Assembly: GCA_018903055.1 (NCBI GenBank)
Contig: JAHIPW010000025.1
Location: 1 to 10,404, forward strand
Length of the DNA: 10,404 nt
Direction: 5' to 3'
DNA from: DRGV01 sp018903055 [NCBI: bacterium]
Lineage (GTDB): Bacteria; UBP18; UBA7526
In this document: positions 1,262 to 10,404 of the stretch, piece after piece
Layout of the letters: every line of letters begins with the position of its first letter
Numbering within the stretch: the stretch's first letter is position 1
The notes under the pieces: generated by a model
Told to the model about the DNA's origin: nothing
Database searches by the model: none
What the model saw: only the letters and a program-made list of their open reading frames with translations
Position numbers and translations under genes: made by a program

Positions 1262-1343
1262 CTACAGGCTACAGGCTACAGGCTACAGGCCTCAGGCTTC
1301 AAAAGAAGCTTGCGGCTTGAGGCGTGTGACTTGAGGCGTGTGG
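1262..1343. repeat. Heptamer array (ctacagg) plus 14-bp direct repeat in the gap
   Basis: Four perfect tandem copies of ctacagg occupy 1262-1289, followed by a variant copy cctcagg (1290-1296). A short inverted repeat GCTTC-AAAA-GAAGC follows. Next comes a 14-bp direct repeat, cttgaggcgtgtga (1316-1329) and cttgaggcgtgtgg (1330-1343). Together these fill most of the gap between the deacetylase and the WaaQ-like gene. The same heptamer, in the opposite orientation (cctgtag), occurs at 4307-4327. Confidence 0.9.
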
Positions 1344-3063: not shown

Positions 3064-3160
3064 AGCGAACAGTTTACAGTAAAAAAACTAAAAGAGTATC
3101 AGAGCACAGTGAAGAATTTAGCCAGATTGTCTGGCGTCTATACTGATATTCTATGGTTTT

Positions 3161-3188
3161 ACTGGTTACTGTTAACTGGTTACTGGTT
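3161..3188. repeat. Heptamer array (actggtt) running into the waaF stop codon
   Basis: Four tandem 7-bp units occupy 3161-3188: actggtt, actgtta, actggtt, actggtt. On the minus strand the waaF TAA (3180-3182) and its last two codons lie inside the array. The gene end therefore appears to have been created or replaced by repeat DNA. Confidence 0.88.
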
Positions 3189-4211
3189 ACTTTGGCATTC
3201 ACGATTCAGGTATGTTTTTGCTGCTTGAAAGACATCTTCTGCACTAATCTCTTTAAAACAGATTAATTTCTTACACTTCCTTCTAAAGCAGGGACTGCAG
3301 GAAACCTTCTTATAGATGATGGTGCAGTCCTCTTTTCTCCAAGGTCTAGTCTTTTCAGGGTCGGATGAACCAAATAGAGCAACGATGGGTGTCTTAGTGG
3401 TGGAGGCGACCTGTAAGGGACCACTATCATTAGTAATAAAGAGACGACATTTTTCGATTAATGCCCTAAGTTGTTTTAAGGATGTTTTTCCTACCGCATT
3501 TATTGGATTAGCGGTCATCTTATCTATAATCTTCTGAATGAGAGGAAGATCGTTCTTTCCCCCAAAGAGAATTACTCTGGCTCTGTAACTTTTTATTAAA
3601 CTATCTGCTAAAGTGGCATACCTTTTAGGAAACCATCTCTTGGCGGGTCCAAAATAGGCCCCAGGAAAGATACCGACGAGTAAATCGTCCTTTCCATAAC
3701 TACTCTTAATTAGAAAATTTCTCGCCCATTCTTTAGCCTCCCCATCTTCAGCCATGAAGACCTCTTTTCTTGTTATCTCTACTCCCAAAGCCTTTACTAA
3801 TCCCAAAAAGAAATCTACCTCGTGCTGAGTCTTTTTAGAACGTTTAACTACCTTGGTTAAGAGGAGATTGCGTAGACTATGGGAATACCCTACCCTCTCT
3901 GGAATCCTTGCCAGATAGAAGAGGATGGCTGGCTCATAAGAGGTGGACTGCATAATAATCCCCAGGTTAAACTTCTTCTCTCTTAAAGTTCTAATGAGTT
4001 TAATCTTCTCTTTTAGCCTCCCTCCTCGTCCATACACAATTAACTCATCAATGTTTGGATTCCCTTCGTATATCTCGGCTAAATTTTCCGGGACAAGAAG
4101 ACTAATCTTTGCTTTCGGAAAGCCGCTTCTTAAGGCAGATAGAGCAGGAGTAATGAAAATAGCATCCCCCACCCAGTTTACTCCTTTCACCAATATTCTC
4201 TTATATTCCAT
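3180..4211 (-). CDS. waaF: ADP-heptose:LPS heptosyltransferase II (WaaF, GT9)
   Basis: A 343-residue protein that transfers the second heptose onto Hep-Kdo-lipid A, on the cytoplasmic side. It has the WaaF hallmarks. KGVNWVGDAIFITPAL is near the N-terminus, with the conserved Asp at about 16. GNPNIDELIVY is at about 50-60. PGAYFGPAKRWFPKRYA is at about 183-199. The donor-site segment TNDSGPLQVAS (about 260-270) is followed by LFGSSDPEKTRPW. A C-terminal Cys cluster typical of WaaF is present, with Cys at about 305, 308, 313 and 318. In the donor motif the usual His (DSG-x-x-H) is Gln. The start is set at ATG 4211, which has GAGG six bases upstream. An in-frame ATG at 4223 would add four residues but has no ribosome site. 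The stop codon lies in a heptamer array. It follows lpxK after a repeat-filled gap. Confidence 0.92.
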   Translation of the reverse strand: MEYKRILVKGVNWVGDAIFITPALSALRSGFPKAKISLLVPENLAEIYEGNPNIDELIVYGRGGRLKEKIKLIRTLREKKFNLGIIMQSTSYEPAILFYLARIPERVGYSHSLRNLLLTKVVKRSKKTQHEVDFFLGLVKALGVEITRKEVFMAEDGEAKEWARNFLIKSSYGKDDLLVGIFPGAYFGPAKRWFPKRYATLADSLIKSYRARVILFGGKNDLPLIQKIIDKMTANPINAVGKTSLKQLRALIEKCRLFITNDSGPLQVASTTKTPIVALFGSSDPEKTRPWRKEDCTIIYKKVSCSPCFRRKCKKLICFKEISAEDVFQAAKTYLNRECQSNQ

Positions 4212-4232
4212 TTCAAGCCTCATGTTTAGGAA

Positions 4233-4327
4233 TCGGTGAATCGGCGAGCCGGTGAATCGGAGACTTTCTCCGTTTCTCCCCTTCTCCGTTTCTCCGTTTC
4301 AACATTCTTGTAGCCTGTAGCCTGTAG
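4233..4327. repeat. Three consecutive short tandem arrays (8, 8 and 7 bp)
   Basis: The lpxK-waaF gap is almost entirely array. Four 8-bp units of tcggtgaa type occupy 4233-4264. Four 8-bp units of tttctccg type follow directly at 4265-4296. Three 7-bp units of cctgtag type occupy 4307-4327. Unit sequence changes abruptly at each junction while short periodicity is kept. The last array is the heptamer of 1262-1289 in the opposite orientation, and it ends five bases before the lpxK stop codon. Confidence 0.88.
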
Positions 4328-4332
4328 CCAGG

Positions 4333-5427
4333 TTAGAGCATCCTTTCCAAGATTTCCTGGCCTTTGGTGATCTTCAGTTTTATTCTTAAGGCAAGGACGG
4401 ATTCATTTTCTAATAATGGCTCAAGGCGCACCCCATCCTTCTGGGTAGTAACAATGAGACAGCCTCTTGCCTTACTAGTAATTTCTTCTAAATCTTCCTT
4501 AGTATAGAGATAGTGATCAGGATAGCGAAGCCTCTTCATAATTATTGCCTTCAGATTCTTCAATGTCTTCTCAAAGGACTCTGGGTGGGCGATACTCGAT
4601 AAAGCAAGAACCTCTTTATTCTCTACAAATTCCAAGTCGAGCCTTCTCTTACTCTTCAAATCTTCTAAATAGCATGGAGCATGGATGCTCTCCAGAATGG
4701 GAGCGAAGGAGTTAATTTTTCTTATCCTGTCCTTCAAGCCCGCTAAATTTCCCGCTTGATCTGTTCTGGTCAAGATGAAGAGGTCTGCCCTCTTGAGACT
4801 CTCTAATGGCTCTCTCAGTATTCCTCTCGGTAGAAGGTGCCCGTTGCCAAAGGGATTGAGGCTATCGATAAGTAGAACATCCAGATCACGCTCCAAACTC
4901 TGGTATTGGAAACCATCGTCCAGGATAAAGGTCTCTGTATCAAAATTAGCTAAACAGTAATTTCCGCTTTTTATGCGATCCTTTCCTATGACTATTGGAA
5001 CGCCCGATAGATTCTGAGCCAAGAGATAAGGCTCATCTCCCGCCTCTTTCGCCGACAATAGAATCTTCTTCCCATCCGTCACTACTGCGACCCGCGATCC
5101 GTAATTTTGAATTTTGCACTTTGAATTTTGAATTTTTCCTCCGTATCCCCTACTCAGTATGGCTGTCTTTCTCCCCTTCTCTTGAAGAAGTCCTGCTATT
5201 CTTTCAACTGCTGGAGTCTTCCCCGTTCCTCCTACAGTCAAGTTGCCCACACTAATCACCTTTGCTTTTAGTCTCGCTTTTCTTAAGATTCTTAATTTAT
5301 ATAGAAGTTGAATAATTTTAAGGCCTAAATAGTATATCCCGGATAGAATTAAAAGAATAGGACGCAACAGGGAGGCAAAGAGACCCCTTCTCTCATCTGA
5401 AATAATACTCAATAAATATTTCTCCAT
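4333..5427 (-). CDS. lpxK: Tetraacyldisaccharide 4'-kinase (LpxK)
   Basis: A 364-residue membrane-bound kinase of the Raetz pathway. It phosphorylates the 4'-position of the tetraacyl disaccharide to give lipid IVA. A hydrophobic N-terminal segment (about 20-45) should anchor it to the inner membrane. The P-loop GNLTVGGTGKTP is at 61-72. SRGYGGK (92-98), GDEP (130-133), the Walker B-like ILDDGFQY (168-175) and LLPRGILREP (198-207) are all in family order. ATG 5427 has AGGAG five bases upstream. Residues 98-108, KIQNSKCKIQN, are encoded by a heptamer array inserted in the loop after SRGYGG, a place where other LpxK proteins have unrelated short sequence. All recognised catalytic motifs are intact, so the enzyme is expected to work. 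Confidence 0.95.
   Translation of the reverse strand: MEKYLLSIISDERRGLFASLLRPILLILSGIYYLGLKIIQLLYKLRILRKARLKAKVISVGNLTVGGTGKTPAVERIAGLLQEKGRKTAILSRGYGGKIQNSKCKIQNYGSRVAVVTDGKKILLSAKEAGDEPYLLAQNLSGVPIVIGKDRIKSGNYCLANFDTETFILDDGFQYQSLERDLDVLLIDSLNPFGNGHLLPRGILREPLESLKRADLFILTRTDQAGNLAGLKDRIRKINSFAPILESIHAPCYLEDLKSKRRLDLEFVENKEVLALSSIAHPESFEKTLKNLKAIIMKRLRYPDHYLYTKEDLEEITSKARGCLIVTTQKDGVRLEPLLENESVLALRIKLKITKGQEILERML
5103..5137. repeat. In-frame heptamer array (aattttg) inside lpxK
   Basis: Five tandem 7-bp units, four of aattttg type and one cactttg, span 5103-5137. They encode LpxK residues 98-108. The composition and the Lys-Ile-Gln-Asn peptide differ sharply from the surrounding protein. 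Similar units (gcatttt, 5609-5622; attttgc around 5526-5545) occur in the nearby gap. Confidence 0.9.
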
Positions 5428-5450: not shown

Positions 5451-5500
5451 TATCGGTTAATAATGGTTAATATCAGTTAATACCGGTTAATAACGGTTAC
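5451..5500. repeat. Decamer array (tatcggttaa type), five units
   Basis: Five consecutive 10-bp units, each containing gtta, occupy 5451-5500: tatcggttaa, taatggttaa, tatcagttaa, taccggttaa, taacggttac. The array lies just ahead of lpxK on the minus strand, 24 bases from its ATG. It is related in sequence and period to the array at 7561-7610. Confidence 0.88.
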
Positions 5501-5548
5501 TTTCAAATCGTCCCACCCACTTTTTCATTTTGCATTGCTAATTTTGCC

Positions 5549-5608
5549 CCTCGATTTCTCTCGGGATACTTCGCTGAATCCTTCGAGGTATCCTGAGCAA
5601 AGCGAAGG
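5549..5608. repeat. 60-bp imperfect palindrome (REP-like)
   Basis: The inner stem is GGATACTTCG (5564-5573) with CGAGGTATCC (5584-5593), one mismatch, around a 10-nt loop. Outer arms at 5549-5563 and 5594-5608 continue the pairing with several mismatches. The outer right arm holds gagcaaagcga (5595-5605), close to the reverse complement of the 11-nt loops of the other hairpins in this window. The element sits in the gap between the third acyltransferase and lpxK. Confidence 0.75.
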
Positions 5609-5667
5609 GCATTTTGCATTTTTCATTAATTTTTTTTCCCACTTTCCCACTTTCCCATTTTCTCATT
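5609..5667. repeat. Heptamer and octamer arrays crossing the 3' end of the third acyltransferase
   Basis: Two gcatttt units (5609-5622) are followed by a variant, then by four 8-bp units at 5636-5667: ttcccact, ttcccact, ttcccatt, ttctcatt. The octamer array is inside the reading frame and encodes the last dozen residues of the acyltransferase. Its stop codon lies at the junction of the two arrays. Confidence 0.88.
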
Positions 5668-6585
5668 TTCCTGCTTTTGGGCTGGCTTGCTCTTCCACCT
5701 ATTATGCATCCACCACCACTGGGAAGGATATTTTCTAACATATCTCTCAATGATCCGGGTAAGTCTTTGAGTATTGGTTATCAAATCTTCTTCTTTATTT
5801 TCAGTATTAACTAAAGGGACTTCAGGCTCTATGATTAACCGATGCCTCTTTCTTCCTTCTCTAATAATGTACATAGGAACCAGGGGAGCCCCGGTCCTCT
5901 GGGCAAAGATGACTGGGCCGGCAGGAGTGGAGGCGAGTCTTCCAAAGAAATCAACGAAGACTCCTTCCTTCCCGGCATTCTGATCGATGGGAATAATGAG
6001 AAGTTCTCCTTTTTTTAGGGAGGTTAAGGCTCTCTTGGCTACCAGGCTCTTCGGCTTAGGGGGAACGGTTCCTATATTTGAGCGGTCGCGCAGTTCCTGC
6101 ATGAGCCGAGATACTCTTTCATCCTTGGTGTCCTTGGCAATGACGCTCGCTGGATAGCCTTCGTTGGCTATCTTGCGCAAGAGAAGAGTGATATTTCCGA
6201 TATGGCCCATAATTCCAATCGCCCCTTTTCCTTTAGCTAAGGCCCTATCTAAGTTCTCCTTTCCCTCAATGGCCAAGAGATGGGCATACCTCTTTCCATA
6301 TTCCAATGCTCGAATCATCTCGAATCCGCTCTGAGCAATATGGCAATAGTTCTCCTTTATTATTCTCTTTAGTTCTCGAGGAGTTTTACCTTTCCCCAGA
6401 GCCATCTCGATATTCTTCAGACCTATCCCACGATGTTTCCGGTCAACATAATAAGCCAGGTGACCAATGCATCTCCCTCCCCAGAGGAGGAGATTAAGGG
6501 GGAGAAGCCTTATGGGAAGAAGGATGCCATATAAAACAATTCCTCCCAAGCTATGCCTGATCTTTTTTCTCAATCTTTTCAGCAC
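5626..6585 (-). CDS. LpxL/HtrB-family lipid A acyltransferase, third paralogue
   Basis: A 319-residue member of the LpxL/HtrB lysophospholipid-acyltransferase-like family, which adds secondary acyl chains to Kdo-lipid A. A hydrophobic N-terminal segment (about 14-40) should anchor it in the inner membrane. Then come IEGKENLDRALAKGKG, the catalytic-site region MGHIGN (His at 128), IPIDQN (about 198-203), VFVDFFG ending at 215, GPVIFAQRTGAPLVPMYIIRE, and the closing YPSQWWWMHNRWK (286-298). The position five after the His, normally Asp or Glu, is Thr133. GTG 6585 is taken as start because GGAGGAG lies six bases upstream; the frame is open to a GTG at 6612 without a better site. It overlaps the second paralogue by 35 nt and is likely coupled to it. 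The C-terminal tail is repeat-encoded. Confidence 0.88.
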   Translation of the reverse strand: MLKRLRKKIRHSLGGIVLYGILLPIRLLPLNLLLWGGRCIGHLAYYVDRKHRGIGLKNIEMALGKGKTPRELKRIIKENYCHIAQSGFEMIRALEYGKRYAHLLAIEGKENLDRALAKGKGAIGIMGHIGNITLLLRKIANEGYPASVIAKDTKDERVSRLMQELRDRSNIGTVPPKPKSLVAKRALTSLKKGELLIIPIDQNAGKEGVFVDFFGRLASTPAGPVIFAQRTGAPLVPMYIIREGRKRHRLIIEPEVPLVNTENKEEDLITNTQRLTRIIERYVRKYPSQWWWMHNRWKSKPAQKQENEKMGKWESGKKN

Positions 6586-7522
6586 GGATCTCCTCCAACT
6601 TACGCAGGGCACCCCGCCATCTCCTATAGATCCAGAAATATTGGGTAGGATACTTTCTCACATAATCCTCAATAATGTCGGTAAACTTCTGGGTATTGAT
6701 CAAGATATCCTTCTCCTTATTCCCGGTTAGTTCTAACTCTACTGGTGGATCGATGACTATAGTATATCCCTGGTTCCCTTTCTTTCGTACAATAAACATA
6801 GGAAGGAGGGTGGCACCACTCCTCTTTGCCAGGGTAACTGTCCCGGGGGCAGAGGCCGCTGGCTGACCGAAGAAATCTACCCAGACAGCTCCCTTATCCT
6901 CAAAGAAGTTCCTATCCTGCTGAAGATAGAGGATTTTATTCTCCCTCAGCCATCTTAAGGATTTCCTTACTGCTCGATGGGCGGGCAGGGCAGGAATGGA
7001 ATGGAATTTCAGTCTTCTCTGCATATCCTTAATGAGTCGGGCTACTTTCTTATCCCGAACTTCTCTATAGAGAACACCCAGAGGATAACCTTCCTTGACT
7101 AATTTAGTACCCATGAGCATGAAGTTCCCTAAGTGGCCACTAATGGTCATCACTCCCTTACCCTTGGCTAAGGCTCTGTCCAGATTCTCCTTTCCCTCTA
7201 TGATGAACATGCCATCAATGGTTTCTTGCGAAAGGCGATAACAGCGGAGCACCTCTACGCCGTACCTGGTTAAGTTATGGTAGACCCCTTTAGCAATCCT
7301 CTTTAATTCCTCTTGAGACTTCTTTTTTCCGAAGGCGAGGTTTAGGTTTTTAAAGACCGTCTTATGGTAGAGCCTGATGAGCCAGGCAAATCTGGCCATT
7401 CCCCGGGCAAAAGAATAGGCCATCCTCCAGGACATAGCGTTTATCAGCCAGATGGTAAACCTTAAAAGTACTCTATAGACTATCCAGTACTTCCATTCTC
7501 TCTTAATAAGCCGTCTTCTCAT
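6551..7522 (-). CDS. LpxL/HtrB-family lipid A acyltransferase, second paralogue
   Basis: A 323-residue paralogue of the genes on either side, with a basic N-terminus and a hydrophobic anchor (about 12-50). The shared block IEGKENLDRALAKGKG (108-123) is identical to that of the third paralogue at protein level, while the codons have diverged. The active-site region is ISGHLGNFMLMG with His130; the residue five later is Met135 where the family has Asp or Glu. QQDRN (201-205), WVDFFGQPAASAPGTVTLAKRSGA (214-237), a conserved VELELTGNKEKDI block and YPTQYFWIYRRWR (291-303) follow. ATG 7522 has AAGGA six bases upstream. A 252-bp repeat region separates it from the first paralogue. The membership is clear; the acyl chain and position are unknown. 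Confidence 0.9.
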   Translation of the reverse strand: MRRRLIKREWKYWIVYRVLLRFTIWLINAMSWRMAYSFARGMARFAWLIRLYHKTVFKNLNLAFGKKKSQEELKRIAKGVYHNLTRYGVEVLRCYRLSQETIDGMFIIEGKENLDRALAKGKGVMTISGHLGNFMLMGTKLVKEGYPLGVLYREVRDKKVARLIKDMQRRLKFHSIPALPAHRAVRKSLRWLRENKILYLQQDRNFFEDKGAVWVDFFGQPAASAPGTVTLAKRSGATLLPMFIVRKKGNQGYTIVIDPPVELELTGNKEKDILINTQKFTDIIEDYVRKYPTQYFWIYRRWRGALRKLEEIRAEKIEKKDQA

Positions 7523-7560
7523 CTAACATCCTTCAGGGGTTAGGGGGAAAACATCTAAAG

Positions 7561-7610
7561 GTTACTAGCAGTTACTAATGGTTACTAAACAGTTACTACC
7601 AGTTACCAAA
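7561..7610. repeat. Decamer array (gttacta type), five units
   Basis: Units of 10 bp, one of 11, each begin gttact or gttacc and run through 7561-7610. They lie about 40 bases ahead of the second acyltransferase. The core is close to that of the arrays at 5451-5500 and 3161-3188. Confidence 0.85.
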
Positions 7611-7647
7611 GATTAATATAAGTAAGCTTTTCGCTAATGCTCAAGAA

Positions 7648-7764
7648 CCTTGTTACTCACTTTGCTCGTAATAAGGGGGCCTCGGCCTTCAGTGAAAAAA
7701 CTTGTTTCTTCGTTACGCTCAGAAATAAGAGCAACTGTTCGTAACAGTCCGGCTTTAGACGGAC
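7648..7764. repeat. Cluster of four short hairpins in the gap
   Basis: Hairpin 1 has arms CCTTGTTAC (7648-7656) and GTAATAAGG (7668-7676) with 11-nt loop tcactttgctc. Hairpin 2 has arms CTTGTTTCT (7701-7709) and AGAAATAAG (7721-7729) with 11-nt loop tcgttacgctc. Hairpin 3 is CTGTT-CGT-AACAG (7735-7747). Hairpin 4 is GTCCG (7747-7751) with CGGAC (7760-7764). The first two share loop length, loop pattern and the position of a G-T pair, although the stems differ. No T-run follows, so they are not obvious terminators. Confidence 0.75.
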
Positions 7765-7774
7765 GTAGTAACCG

Positions 7775-8704
7775 TTATTCTTCCTGCTCCCCCTGTTTTG
7801 GTGGTTGGGTTTTCCAACGTCGATAGGTCCAGAGCCACTGCTCAGGATATTTCTTTACATAGGATTCAATAATCTTAGTAAACTTAGCACTATTTACCAA
7901 AATATCTTTTTCTTTGTTGCCGGTTACTTCTAATTCCACTGGAGGTCCAAAGATAATTCTATGTTTACTAGTCATCTCTCTAACAACGAACATAGGCAGG
8001 ACAGTAGCTCCAGTTCTCTTGGCCAATACTACCGGTCCAATGGGGGTTGCTGCTGAATAACCAAAGAAGTCGACAAAGACCCCTTGAGGAGAATTACGGT
8101 CTGCCTGTATGCAGAGAACTTTATTCTCTCTTAGCCATTTTAGGGATTTACGAACTGAAGCATGAGAAGGGGAAGTGGGTATAAGGCTAATTCCTAAGTG
8201 GTGTCCGATATCGAAAAAGAGTTTTACAACTCTCGCCTCATTTGTTCCATAAATGAAAGAGGCGCAGGGATAACCTTCCTGAACCAATTTAGCGCCCATC
8301 AAAGGAAAATTACCTAAATGGGCAGAGAGCCCAATCACCCCTTTTCCTCGAGCCAGAGCAGCATCTAAATATTCTCTTCCCTGGATAGTAAATATTTTAT
8401 CGATCTCTGTCTGGGTGAATTTAAAGGTGCGTAATAGCTCACAAATGTTTTTAGCAATATTGCGGTAGGCTTCCCGAGCAATGGCTCTAATTTCCTGGGG
8501 GTCTTTCTCTCTTCCGAAAGCGCGATTAAGGTTATTAAAGACTATTTGACGTCTAACCCTCAGTATCCAAGCCAACCCAGCCAGACTATTTGCCAGGCTA
8601 TACATTATCTTTAAGGGTAAAATATTTATCAGGGCAATAGCTATCTTAAGCACTACCCATCCTACATTATGTTTGATCCATCTTTTCACCTTTTTCACTC
8701 CCAT
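7775..8704 (-). CDS. LpxL/HtrB-family lipid A acyltransferase, first paralogue
   Basis: A 309-residue LpxL/HtrB-family protein translated directly after waaA. Its ATG at 8704 overlaps the waaA stop by 10 nt and has AGGAAA upstream, so coupling with Kdo transfer is likely. LpxL enzymes use Kdo-lipid A as acceptor, which suits this order. An N-terminal hydrophobic anchor (about 14-50) is followed by FNNLNRAFG, the block RGKGVIGLSAHLGNFPLMG with His129, QADRN (200-204), VFVDFFG (209-215), GPVVLAKRTGATVLPMFVVRE (223-243) and YPEQWLWTYRRWK (286-298). The residue five after the His is Pro134 rather than Asp or Glu. The gene is the most divergent of the three in the block before the active site. Confidence 0.9.
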   Translation of the reverse strand: MGVKKVKRWIKHNVGWVVLKIAIALINILPLKIMYSLANSLAGLAWILRVRRQIVFNNLNRAFGREKDPQEIRAIAREAYRNIAKNICELLRTFKFTQTEIDKIFTIQGREYLDAALARGKGVIGLSAHLGNFPLMGAKLVQEGYPCASFIYGTNEARVVKLFFDIGHHLGISLIPTSPSHASVRKSLKWLRENKVLCIQADRNSPQGVFVDFFGYSAATPIGPVVLAKRTGATVLPMFVVREMTSKHRIIFGPPVELEVTGNKEKDILVNSAKFTKIIESYVKKYPEQWLWTYRRWKTQPPKQGEQEE

Positions 8705-9972
8705 AATTTTCCTATCAGTTCCACTGTTCTTTCTGAGGCCCCCTGATGCCTCTTAACAATTTCTTGAGCTCTTTTTCCTGTCTTCTCTCTTTTTTCAGGG
8801 TTTTTTAAGAGGTCTAAAATATTTTTTAATAGTTCTTCTCTATCCCTGGCCTGGATTCCTCCTTTTCCTTCTATAAGTAATCGAGCACTCTCCACGAAGT
8901 TATGCATATAGGGCCCGAAGAGAGGCGCCTTGCCTAAGGCAGCCGGCTCCAAGATATTGTGCCCCCCAACAGGAACCAAGCTCCCTCCCACAAAGACTAC
9001 TGTTGCCAAAGAGTAAACCTTTGCTAATTCACCGATAGTATCGATGAGAATAATCGGTGATCGGTGATCGGTGATCGGTGATCGGTGATTAGTGATCTGG
9101 GAGCGGCGGATACAAGAGAGATTTTTATTTTTAATTAAGGACTCAACTTCTGGGATGCGTTCTGGGTGGCGGGGAGTAAGAATGAGTCTTAGGTTTGGGT
9201 ATTCTTCCCTTGCCTTCTGATAAATATCTAAGATAATCTCTTCTTCCCCGGGATGAGTACTTCCGGCAACCAGAACCAGATCTTTTGAAGAAATCTTCAG
9301 TTCTTCAGCCAACCTTTCCCTATCTGAAACTTCAGTCTGCAGTCCATCGAACTTGACATTACCCGTAACATGGACTCTTTCTTTTGGGGCCCCTAAAGAG
9401 ATGATTCGCTCCTCATCCAATTTAGACTGCATACAGAATAGATCGATGTTAAAGAGTACTTTCTTTAAAAAGGGCTTTATTATTTTATAGCCCTTAAAAG
9501 AGCTGGGTGAGATTCTACCATTAACTACTGCCAGAGGAATTTTTCTTTTCTTTGTCTCTCTTATAAAATTGGGCCAAAGCTCGGTCTCAACCATAATGAA
9601 GAGTTTGGGCTGGATGATTTTTAAAACTTTATTTACAATCCATTTAAAGTCTAAGGGGAAGTAGATAATTTCCTTGGGATCGGAGATTGCCTTCCTGGCC
9701 ATATCCTGGCCGGTATCCGTTACGGTAGAAATTAAAAAACTATACTTCGGAAATCTCTTTCTTATAGCATCTATTACAGGAGAGGCAGCGATTACTTCTC
9801 CTACGCTCACTGCATGAACCCAGATGATATCTTTATCTTTTAACTTCGGGATAAACCCCAGACGCTGCTTCAGTCCCTTCTTATACTTTCCTTTAGTAAT
9901 CATTCTAAAAAGGAAATAGGGAGTGGAGAAGAGTAAGAATAAAAATAGTAACATACTGTAGATAGGATACAT
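8695..9972 (-). CDS. waaA: 3-deoxy-D-manno-octulosonic acid (Kdo) transferase
   Basis: A 425-residue GT30 enzyme that transfers Kdo from CMP-Kdo to lipid IVA at the inner membrane. An N-terminal transmembrane segment (about 3-23) precedes RLGF. HAVSVGEV is at 53-60, with the catalytic Glu at 59. ISTVTDTG (81-88), ETELWPN (129-135), GNVKFD (204-209), AGSTHPGEE (236-244), LTPRHPER (265-272) and the CMP-Kdo-site block GGSLVPVGGHNILEP (329-343) follow, all as expected. The start is set at ATG 9972, which has AAAGG five bases upstream; the frame extends to a TTG at 9993 that lacks a ribosome site. Residues 293-306, ITNHRSPITDHRSP, are encoded by a heptamer array lying between the LTPRHPER and DTIGEL segments. 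Whether one or two Kdo residues are added cannot be told. Confidence 0.95.
   Translation of the reverse strand: MYPIYSMLLFLFLLFSTPYFLFRMITKGKYKKGLKQRLGFIPKLKDKDIIWVHAVSVGEVIAASPVIDAIRKRFPKYSFLISTVTDTGQDMARKAISDPKEIIYFPLDFKWIVNKVLKIIQPKLFIMVETELWPNFIRETKKRKIPLAVVNGRISPSSFKGYKIIKPFLKKVLFNIDLFCMQSKLDEERIISLGAPKERVHVTGNVKFDGLQTEVSDRERLAEELKISSKDLVLVAGSTHPGEEEIILDIYQKAREEYPNLRLILTPRHPERIPEVESLIKNKNLSCIRRSQITNHRSPITDHRSPIILIDTIGELAKVYSLATVVFVGGSLVPVGGHNILEPAALGKAPLFGPYMHNFVESARLLIEGKGGIQARDREELLKNILDLLKNPEKREKTGKRAQEIVKRHQGASERTVELIGKLWE
9054..9095. repeat. In-frame heptamer array (tcggtga) inside waaA
   Basis: Five perfect tandem copies of tcggtga (9054-9088) and one variant, ttagtga (9089-9095), add up to 42 bp, exactly 14 codons. 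They encode the heptad-repeat peptide ITNHRSP-ITDHRSP. Because the unit is 7 bp, gain or loss of one copy would shift the reading frame. Confidence 0.93.
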
Positions 9973-9997
9973 TTTTACCTTTAAGTTAGTCAATAAA

Positions 9998-10037
9998 GGT
10001 TATCCGGTAACCAGGTGATCGGGGACTAGGACATCAG
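9998..10037. repeat. Degenerate octamer array ahead of waaA
   Basis: Five 8-bp units can be laid out across 9998-10037: ggttatcc, ggtaacca, ggtgatcg, gggactag, gacatcag. The array shares words (ggttatc, caggtgatc, gggact) with the reverse complement of the array at 10240-10303. The two bracket the gap in inverted orientation. It begins 26 bases upstream of the waaA ATG. Confidence 0.6.
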
Positions 10038-10067
10038 GAAATTTGTTTAAATCCGAAGCTCGAAACC

Positions 10068-10130
10068 CAGCACCAGAGCAGAGCTCGGTGCTGGACCAGT
10101 CCCGCACCGAAACGAAGTTTCTGGTGCGGG
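10068..10130. repeat. Twin bulged hairpins
   Basis: Hairpin 1 has outer stem CAGCACC (10068-10074) with GGTGCTG (10087-10093), one bulged A, inner stem GAGC with GCTC, and triloop AGA. Hairpin 2 has outer stem CCCGCACC (10101-10108) with GGTGCGGG (10123-10130), inner stem GAAAC with GTTTC, triloop GAA, and one bulged T. Both share the GCACC/GGTGC core and the same architecture, and cgaaaccc words flank the pair. The GC-rich composition differs from the surrounding DNA. In the 331-bp gap 9973-10303 I see no credible gene, only these hairpins and short arrays. Confidence 0.85.
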
Positions 10131-10207
10131 GTCCGAAACCCGAAAAAATGACCCAATTTCCCAATGTTTAAATTTAGTCATCGAGGCATTTAGACATTTG
10201 TTCGTCA

Positions 10208-10303
10208 TTCTGGTTTCTGGTTTTGTCATTATTTTTGCTCTTCCGGATCTCCGGATCACCTGATCACCCAGTCCCGGATAGCCTGATAACCTGATATCCT
10301 ACT
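10208..10303. repeat. Heptamer then octamer arrays abutting a stop codon
   Basis: Two ttctggt units (10208-10221) with a variant are followed, after a T-rich stretch, by eight degenerate 8-bp units from 10240 to 10303 (cttccgga, tctccgga, tcacctga and so on to atcctact). The octamer array ends exactly where the stop codon of the right-edge gene begins (10304). Confidence 0.65.
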
Positions 10304-10404
10304 TTAGGCAAAGTAACCGTCTGCTTCCTCTGTAAGCCTGTTTAGGACTTTTTCTATTTCTTCGGTCTTTTCTTTTATTATCTTTTGTGATGCTTTAGGC
10401 GGAA
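10304..10404 (-). CDS. Unrecognised protein, C-terminal end only
   Basis: One minus-strand frame is open from the right edge to a TAA at 10306-10304, giving about 33 residues. The other two minus-strand frames stop early. The peptide is charged and helical in character (Lys/Glu-rich, with TEEIEKVLNRLTEEADGYFA at the end), consistent with a real protein end. It is too short to assign a family. Its position upstream of waaA suggests another envelope gene, but nothing in the visible residues proves that. Confidence 0.55.
   Translation of the reverse strand, partial: PPKASQKIIKEKTEEIEKVLNRLTEEADGYFA

Follow-up and report, generated by a model that had tools for sequence, protein, structure and literature searches.

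What does a tandem array of 7-bp units do inside waaA, the gene for the lipid IVA 3-deoxy-D-manno-oct-2-ulosonic acid (Kdo) transferase? The question is raised by contig JAHIPW010000025.1, whose stretch of 10,404 nucleotides is the window analyzed here and which belongs to a metagenome-assembled genome (MAG) of DRGV01 sp018903055 (G000; 1.085 Mb, 191 contigs, 85% complete). The first-pass annotation of this window had suggested that the array could act as a frameshift switch. As described below, it is most likely a tolerated, turning-over satellite, not an on/off switch.

On the plus strand, five perfect copies of ATCGGTG (9053–9087) are followed by one ATTAGTG (9088–9094) and a partial ATC that runs to 9097, and Tandem Repeats Finder (TRF) assigns the whole a period of 7, 6.4 copies, and a score of 76. 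The five perfect units and one variant that had been annotated, in frame, at 9054–9095 are confirmed; they are the same 42 bp rotated by one base. Read on the minus strand, 14 codons (9096–9055) of the open reading frame (ORF) 8695–9993 encode the peptide ITNHRSPITDHRSP.

By its domain, near full-length NCBIfam, and structure matches, the ORF is identified as a WaaA Kdo transferase. Pfam Glycos_transf_N is matched at 1.2e-67, the best NCBIfam match is PRK05749.1-4 (near full-length, 404.5 bits, which lies under the curated equivalog cut-off of 438), and PDB entries 2xci and 4bfc are matched in sequence at 2.8e-33 and 5.4e-24, respectively, with 2XCI also being the fold match of the model. In this AlphaFold2 model, built with 19 sequences, the mean predicted local distance difference test (pLDDT) value is 91.6, and only residues 296–302 fall below 50, all of which lie within the array peptide (residues 292–305). 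The peptide forms a loop just ahead of the strand that precedes DTIGEL; the sheet topology of the model suggests that this loop would be directed away from the cleft, and it most likely has no catalytic role. A 14-residue segment conserved with divergent codons was looked for, and the segment is missing from all 14 distant WaaA sequences aligned, for which reason a conserved WaaA segment is rejected as the identity of the array. The earlier placement of a nonconserved array in a loop between two conserved segments is supported both by the relatives, which differ at this position, and by the model, in which the array coincides with the sole stretch of pLDDT <50.

Heptamers in the same loops of related genomes

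The comparison set consists of six genomes of the family, G000 and the relatives G001–G005, with completeness of 53–93%. Between ...RS and DTIGEL of WaaA, both G000 and G003 have GATCACC units, and G001 has GGATC(A/C)A units with a palindrome next to them. A palindrome interrupts the GAACTCC units of G004, and the two-unit ATCACAG-like repeats of G005 are interrupted by a GC-rich one; no clear repeat was found in the loop of G002. Heptamers are present in five of the six WaaA loops (two of them weak), and GC-rich palindromes break or adjoin the arrays in three (G001, G004, and G005). WaaA of G001, G003, and G005 also has a second, N-terminal insert, TPPLYTGAGL-like and with GC-rich palindromic coding sequence, that G000, G002, and G004 lack.

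The same pattern of one loop and several units is seen in other enzymes. LpxK, encoded in the same operon as WaaA, carries heptamers at one loop in all six genomes, with four units: AAAATTC, TCGCAGG (G001 and G002), AATTCCC (G003 and G004), and GTCCAAA. In S-adenosylhomocysteine hydrolase (SAHH; L107:11829-13106 and L174–L179), an array is present in four of the six genomes (G000, G001, where it is weak, G002, and G003); G004 and G005 have a nonrepeat loop of equal length, which we take to be the native state. The Pfam stretches of SAHH do not separate array-bearing from native-looking loops. Enolase has repeats in G002–G005, the G000 form being interrupted in a gene split over two contigs and G001 giving no match, and PurH site 1 has repeats in all four genomes with a gene match (G001 and G005 are without one).

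Units were compared at six sites, chosen because arrays had been noticed at them: WaaA, LpxK, SAHH, enolase, and two of the four PurH loops viewed. Of 29 site-genome cases, 24 passed the score filter, with WaaA of G002 and G005, SAHH of G004 and G005, and PurH site 3 of G003 being dropped. Units differ at a mean of 2.03 positions within a site and 3.12 across sites, a separation reached in 0 of 5000 permutations; with identical units removed (19 units, the G005 WaaA unit being re-added by hand), the means are 2.48 and 3.11 (p=0.005). We read this as arrays probably inherited by descent, with the unit replaced over time.

The reading frame of WaaA is open through the array loop in all six genomes, G002 having an assembly gap just before the loop, and the one TGA listed for G005 lies near the N terminus, ahead of the open frame. 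From PEVE to DTIG, the proteins of G000–G005 measure 37, 45, 30, 36, 42, and 42 residues. These lengths bear out the expectation that the loop would be held at frame-preserving values. The annotated steps of three units are correct as arithmetic, but the relatives differ otherwise: a seven-codon (three-unit) difference is found only between G000 and G002, which has no array, G004 and G005 are equal, and G000 and G003, which share the GATCACC unit, are one codon apart. Keeping the frame must therefore also have involved partial units, point indels, and palindromes.

Array density in the genome and mismatch repair genes

The waaA array is one of many. With a sample of 38 G000 contigs that includes the window and excludes three contigs fetched for the motif, and one of 35 stretches of G003, 49 period-7/8 arrays were found in 214 kb and 122 in 514 kb, respectively, or ~23 per 100 kb; without the nine arrays of the window, G000 has 40 in 204 kb. 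The controls contain none in 100 kb of Escherichia coli K-12 and eight in 194 kb of distant waaA loci. Dinucleotide shuffles (five each of the window, 97 kb of G000, and 213 kb of G003) contain no period-7 or period-8 array at a TRF score of at least 40, and shuffles of the 194-kb distant-locus set contain 0.2 per shuffle. The array thus belongs to the known kind of heptanucleotide simple sequence repeat (SSR) or short tandemly repeated repetitive (STRR) sequence: it has at least three head-to-tail 7-bp units, and such loci are numerous, above chance, in the sampled contigs. If the sampled density holds, the assembly contains roughly 200–250 of these arrays.

Period 7 predominates among near-perfect arrays (at least 14 matched positions), with 14 in G000 and 26 in G003, compared with 4 and 15 of period 8 and at most one at each of periods 4–6 and 9–11; the 10 and 19 arrays of period 14 are taken to be largely the period-7 arrays again. 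Under a looser rule of three copies, period 4 yields 4 and 15 arrays. The units are diverse, 13 of the 14 heptamers in G000 and 21 of the 26 in G003 being distinct.

Thirteen of 49 arrays in G000 and 32 of 122 in G003 lie inside ORFs of at least 80 codons; 36 and 90 are not internal to an ORF, though ORFs make up ~90% of the samples. Each of the 20 array-bearing ORFs submitted to Pfam has a match, among them enolase, SAHH, PurH, anthranilate synthase I, UvrD-type and Mfd-type helicases, Lnt, valyl-tRNA synthetase (ValS), a Mur ligase, diaminopimelate epimerase, CobD, and others, and the N-terminal part of ValS on contig C133 is also array-bearing. For 42 of 45 in-ORF arrays, the coding-strand unit contains no stop, compared with a fraction of 0.53 for outside arrays (both orientations); because a stop in the unit is hardly compatible with an ORF, this outcome is nearly guaranteed and therefore is not independent support.

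In searches for profile matches, neither MutS_V nor MutL was detected in any of the six family genomes, each being found in 11 of 14 controls; MutS_V is present in 134 of 142 other genomes. Among genomes sampled from outside the family, 6 of 7 that lack MutS carry period-7/8 arrays, compared with 3 of 20 that have MutS (18 arrays in 266 kb versus 6 in 368 kb; Fisher p=0.0017, Mann-Whitney p=0.0013). The MutS-bearing set consists of small genomes chosen for size, and an eighth MutS-lacking genome (G113, <1 kb) was dropped from the genome count. The densest genome of the comparison set is the MutS-lacking G070 (L195), with nine arrays in 37 kb. In fission yeast, Msh3 has been reported to maintain heptanucleotide repeats (PMC5427490).

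A proposed slippage origin and alternative explanations

The account that we favor, and consider probable, is that these are slippage-driven heptamer satellites in tolerant loops, with the frame under purifying selection and the unit turning over. The waaA array would then belong to a population of 7/8-bp tandem repeats spread over the genome, created and altered in length by replication slippage in a lineage without detected MutS and MutL, slippage perhaps being released by the missing mismatch repair. Within genes, an array would survive only where a loop can accommodate additional or foreign residues, only in an orientation free of stops, and only if the total length preserves the frame. 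Since 7 and 3 have no common factor, the peptide of a heptamer array is the same heptad in all frames; such an array would be indifferent to frame, and selection would therefore work on net length. Point changes would spread through an array by slippage-driven concerted evolution, so that sister species come to hold related but different heptamers at one loop, and GC-rich palindromic elements would insert into some arrays. What the data show directly is the array itself, its place in a loop of the model, the diversity of units at single sites, the open frames, the array density in the samples, and that MutS and MutL were not detected. We infer that slippage is the source of the arrays, that the lack of mismatch repair is its cause, and that the peptide is neutral.

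Several observations weigh against this account. GATCACC recurs at unrelated loci, four in G000 and four in G003, and same-unit pairs in G003 number 6 against 0.7 expected (the shuffle maximum is also 6), which hints at dispersal or a strong unit bias. The LpxK units ignore the genus grouping, G001 and G002 being alike while G000, of the genus of G001, differs. The SAHH array has taken the place of about a dozen native-looking codons and leaves the net length equal to that in G004 and G005, which is more than simple slippage predicts. Ten of 23 same-site pairs with different units differ at 3 or 4 of 7 positions, near the mean of 3.66 for random heptamers, and some same-site arrays could therefore be independent births. 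The absence of MutS and MutL depends on MAGs that are 53–93% complete, the probability that one gene was missed in every one of them at the stated completeness being ~4e-5 if losses are independent. The comparison of MutS-lacking with MutS-bearing genomes is small, is confounded by base composition and ancestry, and is an association only; the MutS-lacking genomes yielded more sequence each (~38 versus 18 kb), G070 supplies half of their 18 arrays, and the units of two others are poorly resolved.

A more far-reaching version of the slippage account, which we hold to be rather doubtful, is that heptamer slippage is a standing loop-rewriting process in a small-genome family without MutS and MutL, by which the same surface loops of essential enzymes would be overwritten again and again, at times with native residues exchanged at unchanged length, while fold and frame stay intact. 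If true, the arrays would be a genome-wide, frame-indifferent source of hypervariable protein loops and not mere junk.

The presence of GATCACC arrays at several unrelated loci per genome, the recurrence of units within G003, and the SAHH replacement without length change would also fit a different, and in our estimate unlikely, origin, namely a transposition-like or retro-like process that would copy both the heptamer arrays and the palindromes around the genome, with loops and existing arrays as preferred landing sites. A filled and empty pair at one PurH site would fit it as well: the GATCACC array is intact in G004 (L170), and the same array is split by a ~24-nt palindrome in G003 (L083:18288-19877). 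In-frame palindromes were seen by eye in WaaA of G001, G004, and G005 and in PurH of G000, G003, and G004, and among 105 reciprocal-best ORF pairs of G000 and G003 (some of them antisense ORFs), many of the 28 internal indels of at least four residues contain GC-rich palindromic sequence, again by eye. Against dispersal stands the fact that most units are unique within the sample. When palindromes were tested for targeting of arrays across the genome, a shared flank 9-mer was found for 3 of 69 and 4 of 168 hairpins, compared with shuffled means of 0.8 and 1.6 and maxima of 4 and 5; this is not significant, and the claim that palindromes enter arrays therefore rests on single cases. A search for the Y1 (REP/RAYT-type) transposase PF01797 matched 5 of 14 controls and none of the six incomplete genomes of the family, other transposases not having been searched, and dispersal of the palindromes by REP/RAYT is rejected on this ground. 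Also rejected is a single mobile and widespread heptamer sequence: the 21-mer (GATCACC)3 occurs in 5 of 386 genomes, all of the family and not including G002, and the reversed control pattern has one match, in G021. At a second PurH site, the AAAATGC array of G004 contains a longer hairpin that G003 does not have.

It is less probable still that the arrays are functional, their repeats serving as binding sites or as RNA or DNA structures for regulation, with their presence in genes being secondary. About three quarters of the arrays are not internal to an ORF despite the high ORF coverage, but selection alone also predicts avoidance of genes. Inverted 8-mer partners are found in array flanks in 16 cases against 7.4 expected (5 of 29 in G000 and 11 of 77 in G003, versus 1.7 and 5.7), with direct 8-mers at 5 and 5 against 2.1 and 6.5, and in Geobacter, tandem octamer and heptamer sites have been proposed to be regulatory (PMC2700814). 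The diversity of the units, and their change at one site between sister species, is unlike what a single sequence-specific reader would require. An inverted copy of the waaA unit lies nearby, ATCGGTGA in the DTIGE codons; that the array was templated from it is a lead, not a result.

With respect to switching, homologous matches in a collinear search run through 22 merged period-7/8 arrays without a change of frame, including those of WaaA and LpxK in several genomes. The method requires one-frame crossing, and the informative contrast is 22 versus none on the coding strand. Ten frame breaks were found in total, of which the one within 45 nt of an array concerns antisense frames at the 3′ end of plus-strand ybeY; in the sampled contigs, which are consensus assemblies, no coding-strand frame break was seen at an array. 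Like a contingency locus, the array lies in an ORF and has a unit length that three does not divide, and in Haemophilus influenzae, heptanucleotide SSRs have been proposed as phase-variation tracts, such as (AATTTTG)14 in the hmw1A ORF with a frameshift (PMC2651432); OFF (frameshifted) alleles were not seen in these consensus assemblies. A phase-variable switch, in which one 7-bp unit lost or gained would put waaA out of frame and turn Kdo transfer off in part of the population, is very improbable given the open WaaA frames, the lack of coding-strand breaks, an array of 5–6 units only, a unit that is itself swapped between species, and arrays in many housekeeping genes (enolase, SAHH, PurH, ValS, Lnt, and the Mfd-type helicase), and the switch that had been annotated is not supported.

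Other features of the window and known systems

The window is a lipopolysaccharide gene cluster that contains, besides waaA, three LpxL-like acyltransferases, lpxK, two heptosyltransferase-like genes, a family-2 glycosyltransferase, and a polysaccharide deacetylase. It holds nine period-7/8 arrays at a TRF score of at least 38, all of which except that in waaA had escaped the first-pass annotation (Table 1).

Table 1. Coordinates of waaA, lpxK, and the repeat arrays of the window
Feature	Position	Strand	Description	Evidence
waaA, lipid IVA Kdo transferase	8695..9993	-	432 aa, TTG start as listed	Pfam, NCBIfam, PDB sequence and fold matches
Heptamer array in waaA	9053..9097	-	coding-strand unit GATCACC, peptide ITNHRSPITDHRSP	TRF and ORF translation
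lpxK	4333..5427	-	heptamer array in a loop	Pfam LpxK 8.6e-83
Heptamer array in lpxK	5103..5136	-	coding unit AAAATTC (rotation of CAAAATT), peptide KIQNSKCKIQN, in frame	
Octamer array in third LpxL-like acyltransferase	5635..5671	-	C-terminal tail GKWESGKKN	
Intergenic heptamer array	1262..1298	.	CTACAGG	TRF
Heptamer array	3159..3191	.	TTACTGG; mostly intergenic, enters 3′ end of waaF-like ORF 3180-4223	
Three neighboring intergenic 7/8-mer arrays	4230..4329	.	GAATCGGT, TTTCTCCG, TGTAGCC	
10-mer array and heptamers	5454..5627	.	10-mer CGGTTAATAA at 5454-5499, then AAAATGC-type heptamers broken by a long hairpin	heptamers and hairpin by eye
Two low-scoring octamer arrays upstream of waaA	10243..10300	.		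TRF scores 38 and 34

The three LpxL/HtrB-like acyltransferase ORFs are consecutive (5626–8704), the first overlapping waaA (8695–8704) and the second overlapping the third (6551–6612). The tail of the third acyltransferase is different or missing in the relatives, and LpxL1 of G001 (L075) has a ~56-residue insert, a nearly duplicated stretch (NKKALPQSGKNLV...). By eye, the hairpin in the AAAATGC-type heptamers between lpxK and the third acyltransferase gene (5500–5620) resembles the purH hairpin of G004, and the ~200 bp upstream of waaA (10000–10310) are flanked by degenerate, roughly inverted octamer repeats.

Heptamer repeats are known to be common in some bacteria, and most descriptions place them between genes or treat them as contingency loci. 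In this lineage, heptamers lie within core enzymes of a small genome; sister species have them in the same loops, with exchanged units and an intact frame. Two questions become testable in this setting: why period 7 dominates the long-unit SSRs of bacteria, and whether loss of MutSL releases period 7. Since such loops recur in separately assembled genomes, they should not hastily be taken for assembly errors or phase switches when met in MAG proteins. Among open-licence PMC papers, no report was found of heptamers exchanged at fixed core-enzyme loops or of the arrays of this lineage. Short palindromes inserted in frame within protein genes, as in WaaA of three relatives, are known as Rickettsia palindromic elements and from other coding palindromes.

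Work on palindromic repeats (PMC3733652) is among the nearest known; the palindromes seen here are diverse, lie partly in or beside heptamer arrays, and come from genomes in which the Y1 transposase was not found. The repeats of Borgs are described as fast-evolving and as making disordered protein stretches, with a conserved repeat hotspot named in a heading, but the in-ORF examples given are of 18, 21, and 36 nt, divisible by three (PMC9879509); the units here are of 7 or 8 nt, and it is the net length that keeps the frame. In H. influenzae, two of the heptamer contingency loci described lie within ORFs (PMC2651432), those being of 13–14 units in surface or receptor genes, compared with 5–6 units in a biosynthetic enzyme here. 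The heptanucleotide elements of Geobacter metallireducens have four units and are both intergenic and intragenic, but they are described as one family of 49 elements with a common consensus (PMC2700814). The TAACTGA repeats of Beggiatoaceae (PMC4679880) are a near relative of the phenomenon, and work on satellites in prokaryotes (PMC6749651) is among the nearest known. There is also a close likeness to the heptanucleotide SSRs of Nostoc and Xanthomonas, from a source that describes heptameric repeats as over-represented in bacteria and proposes a polymerase footprint (PMC4692102): period 7, few units, and many loci are shared, and the Xanthomonas SSRs lie mostly between the same genes in two species while length and sequence vary. 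As in that family, arrays are under-represented in coding DNA, yet about a quarter of those sampled here lie in ORFs, and in contrast to it, the arrays of this lineage have no single consensus unit.
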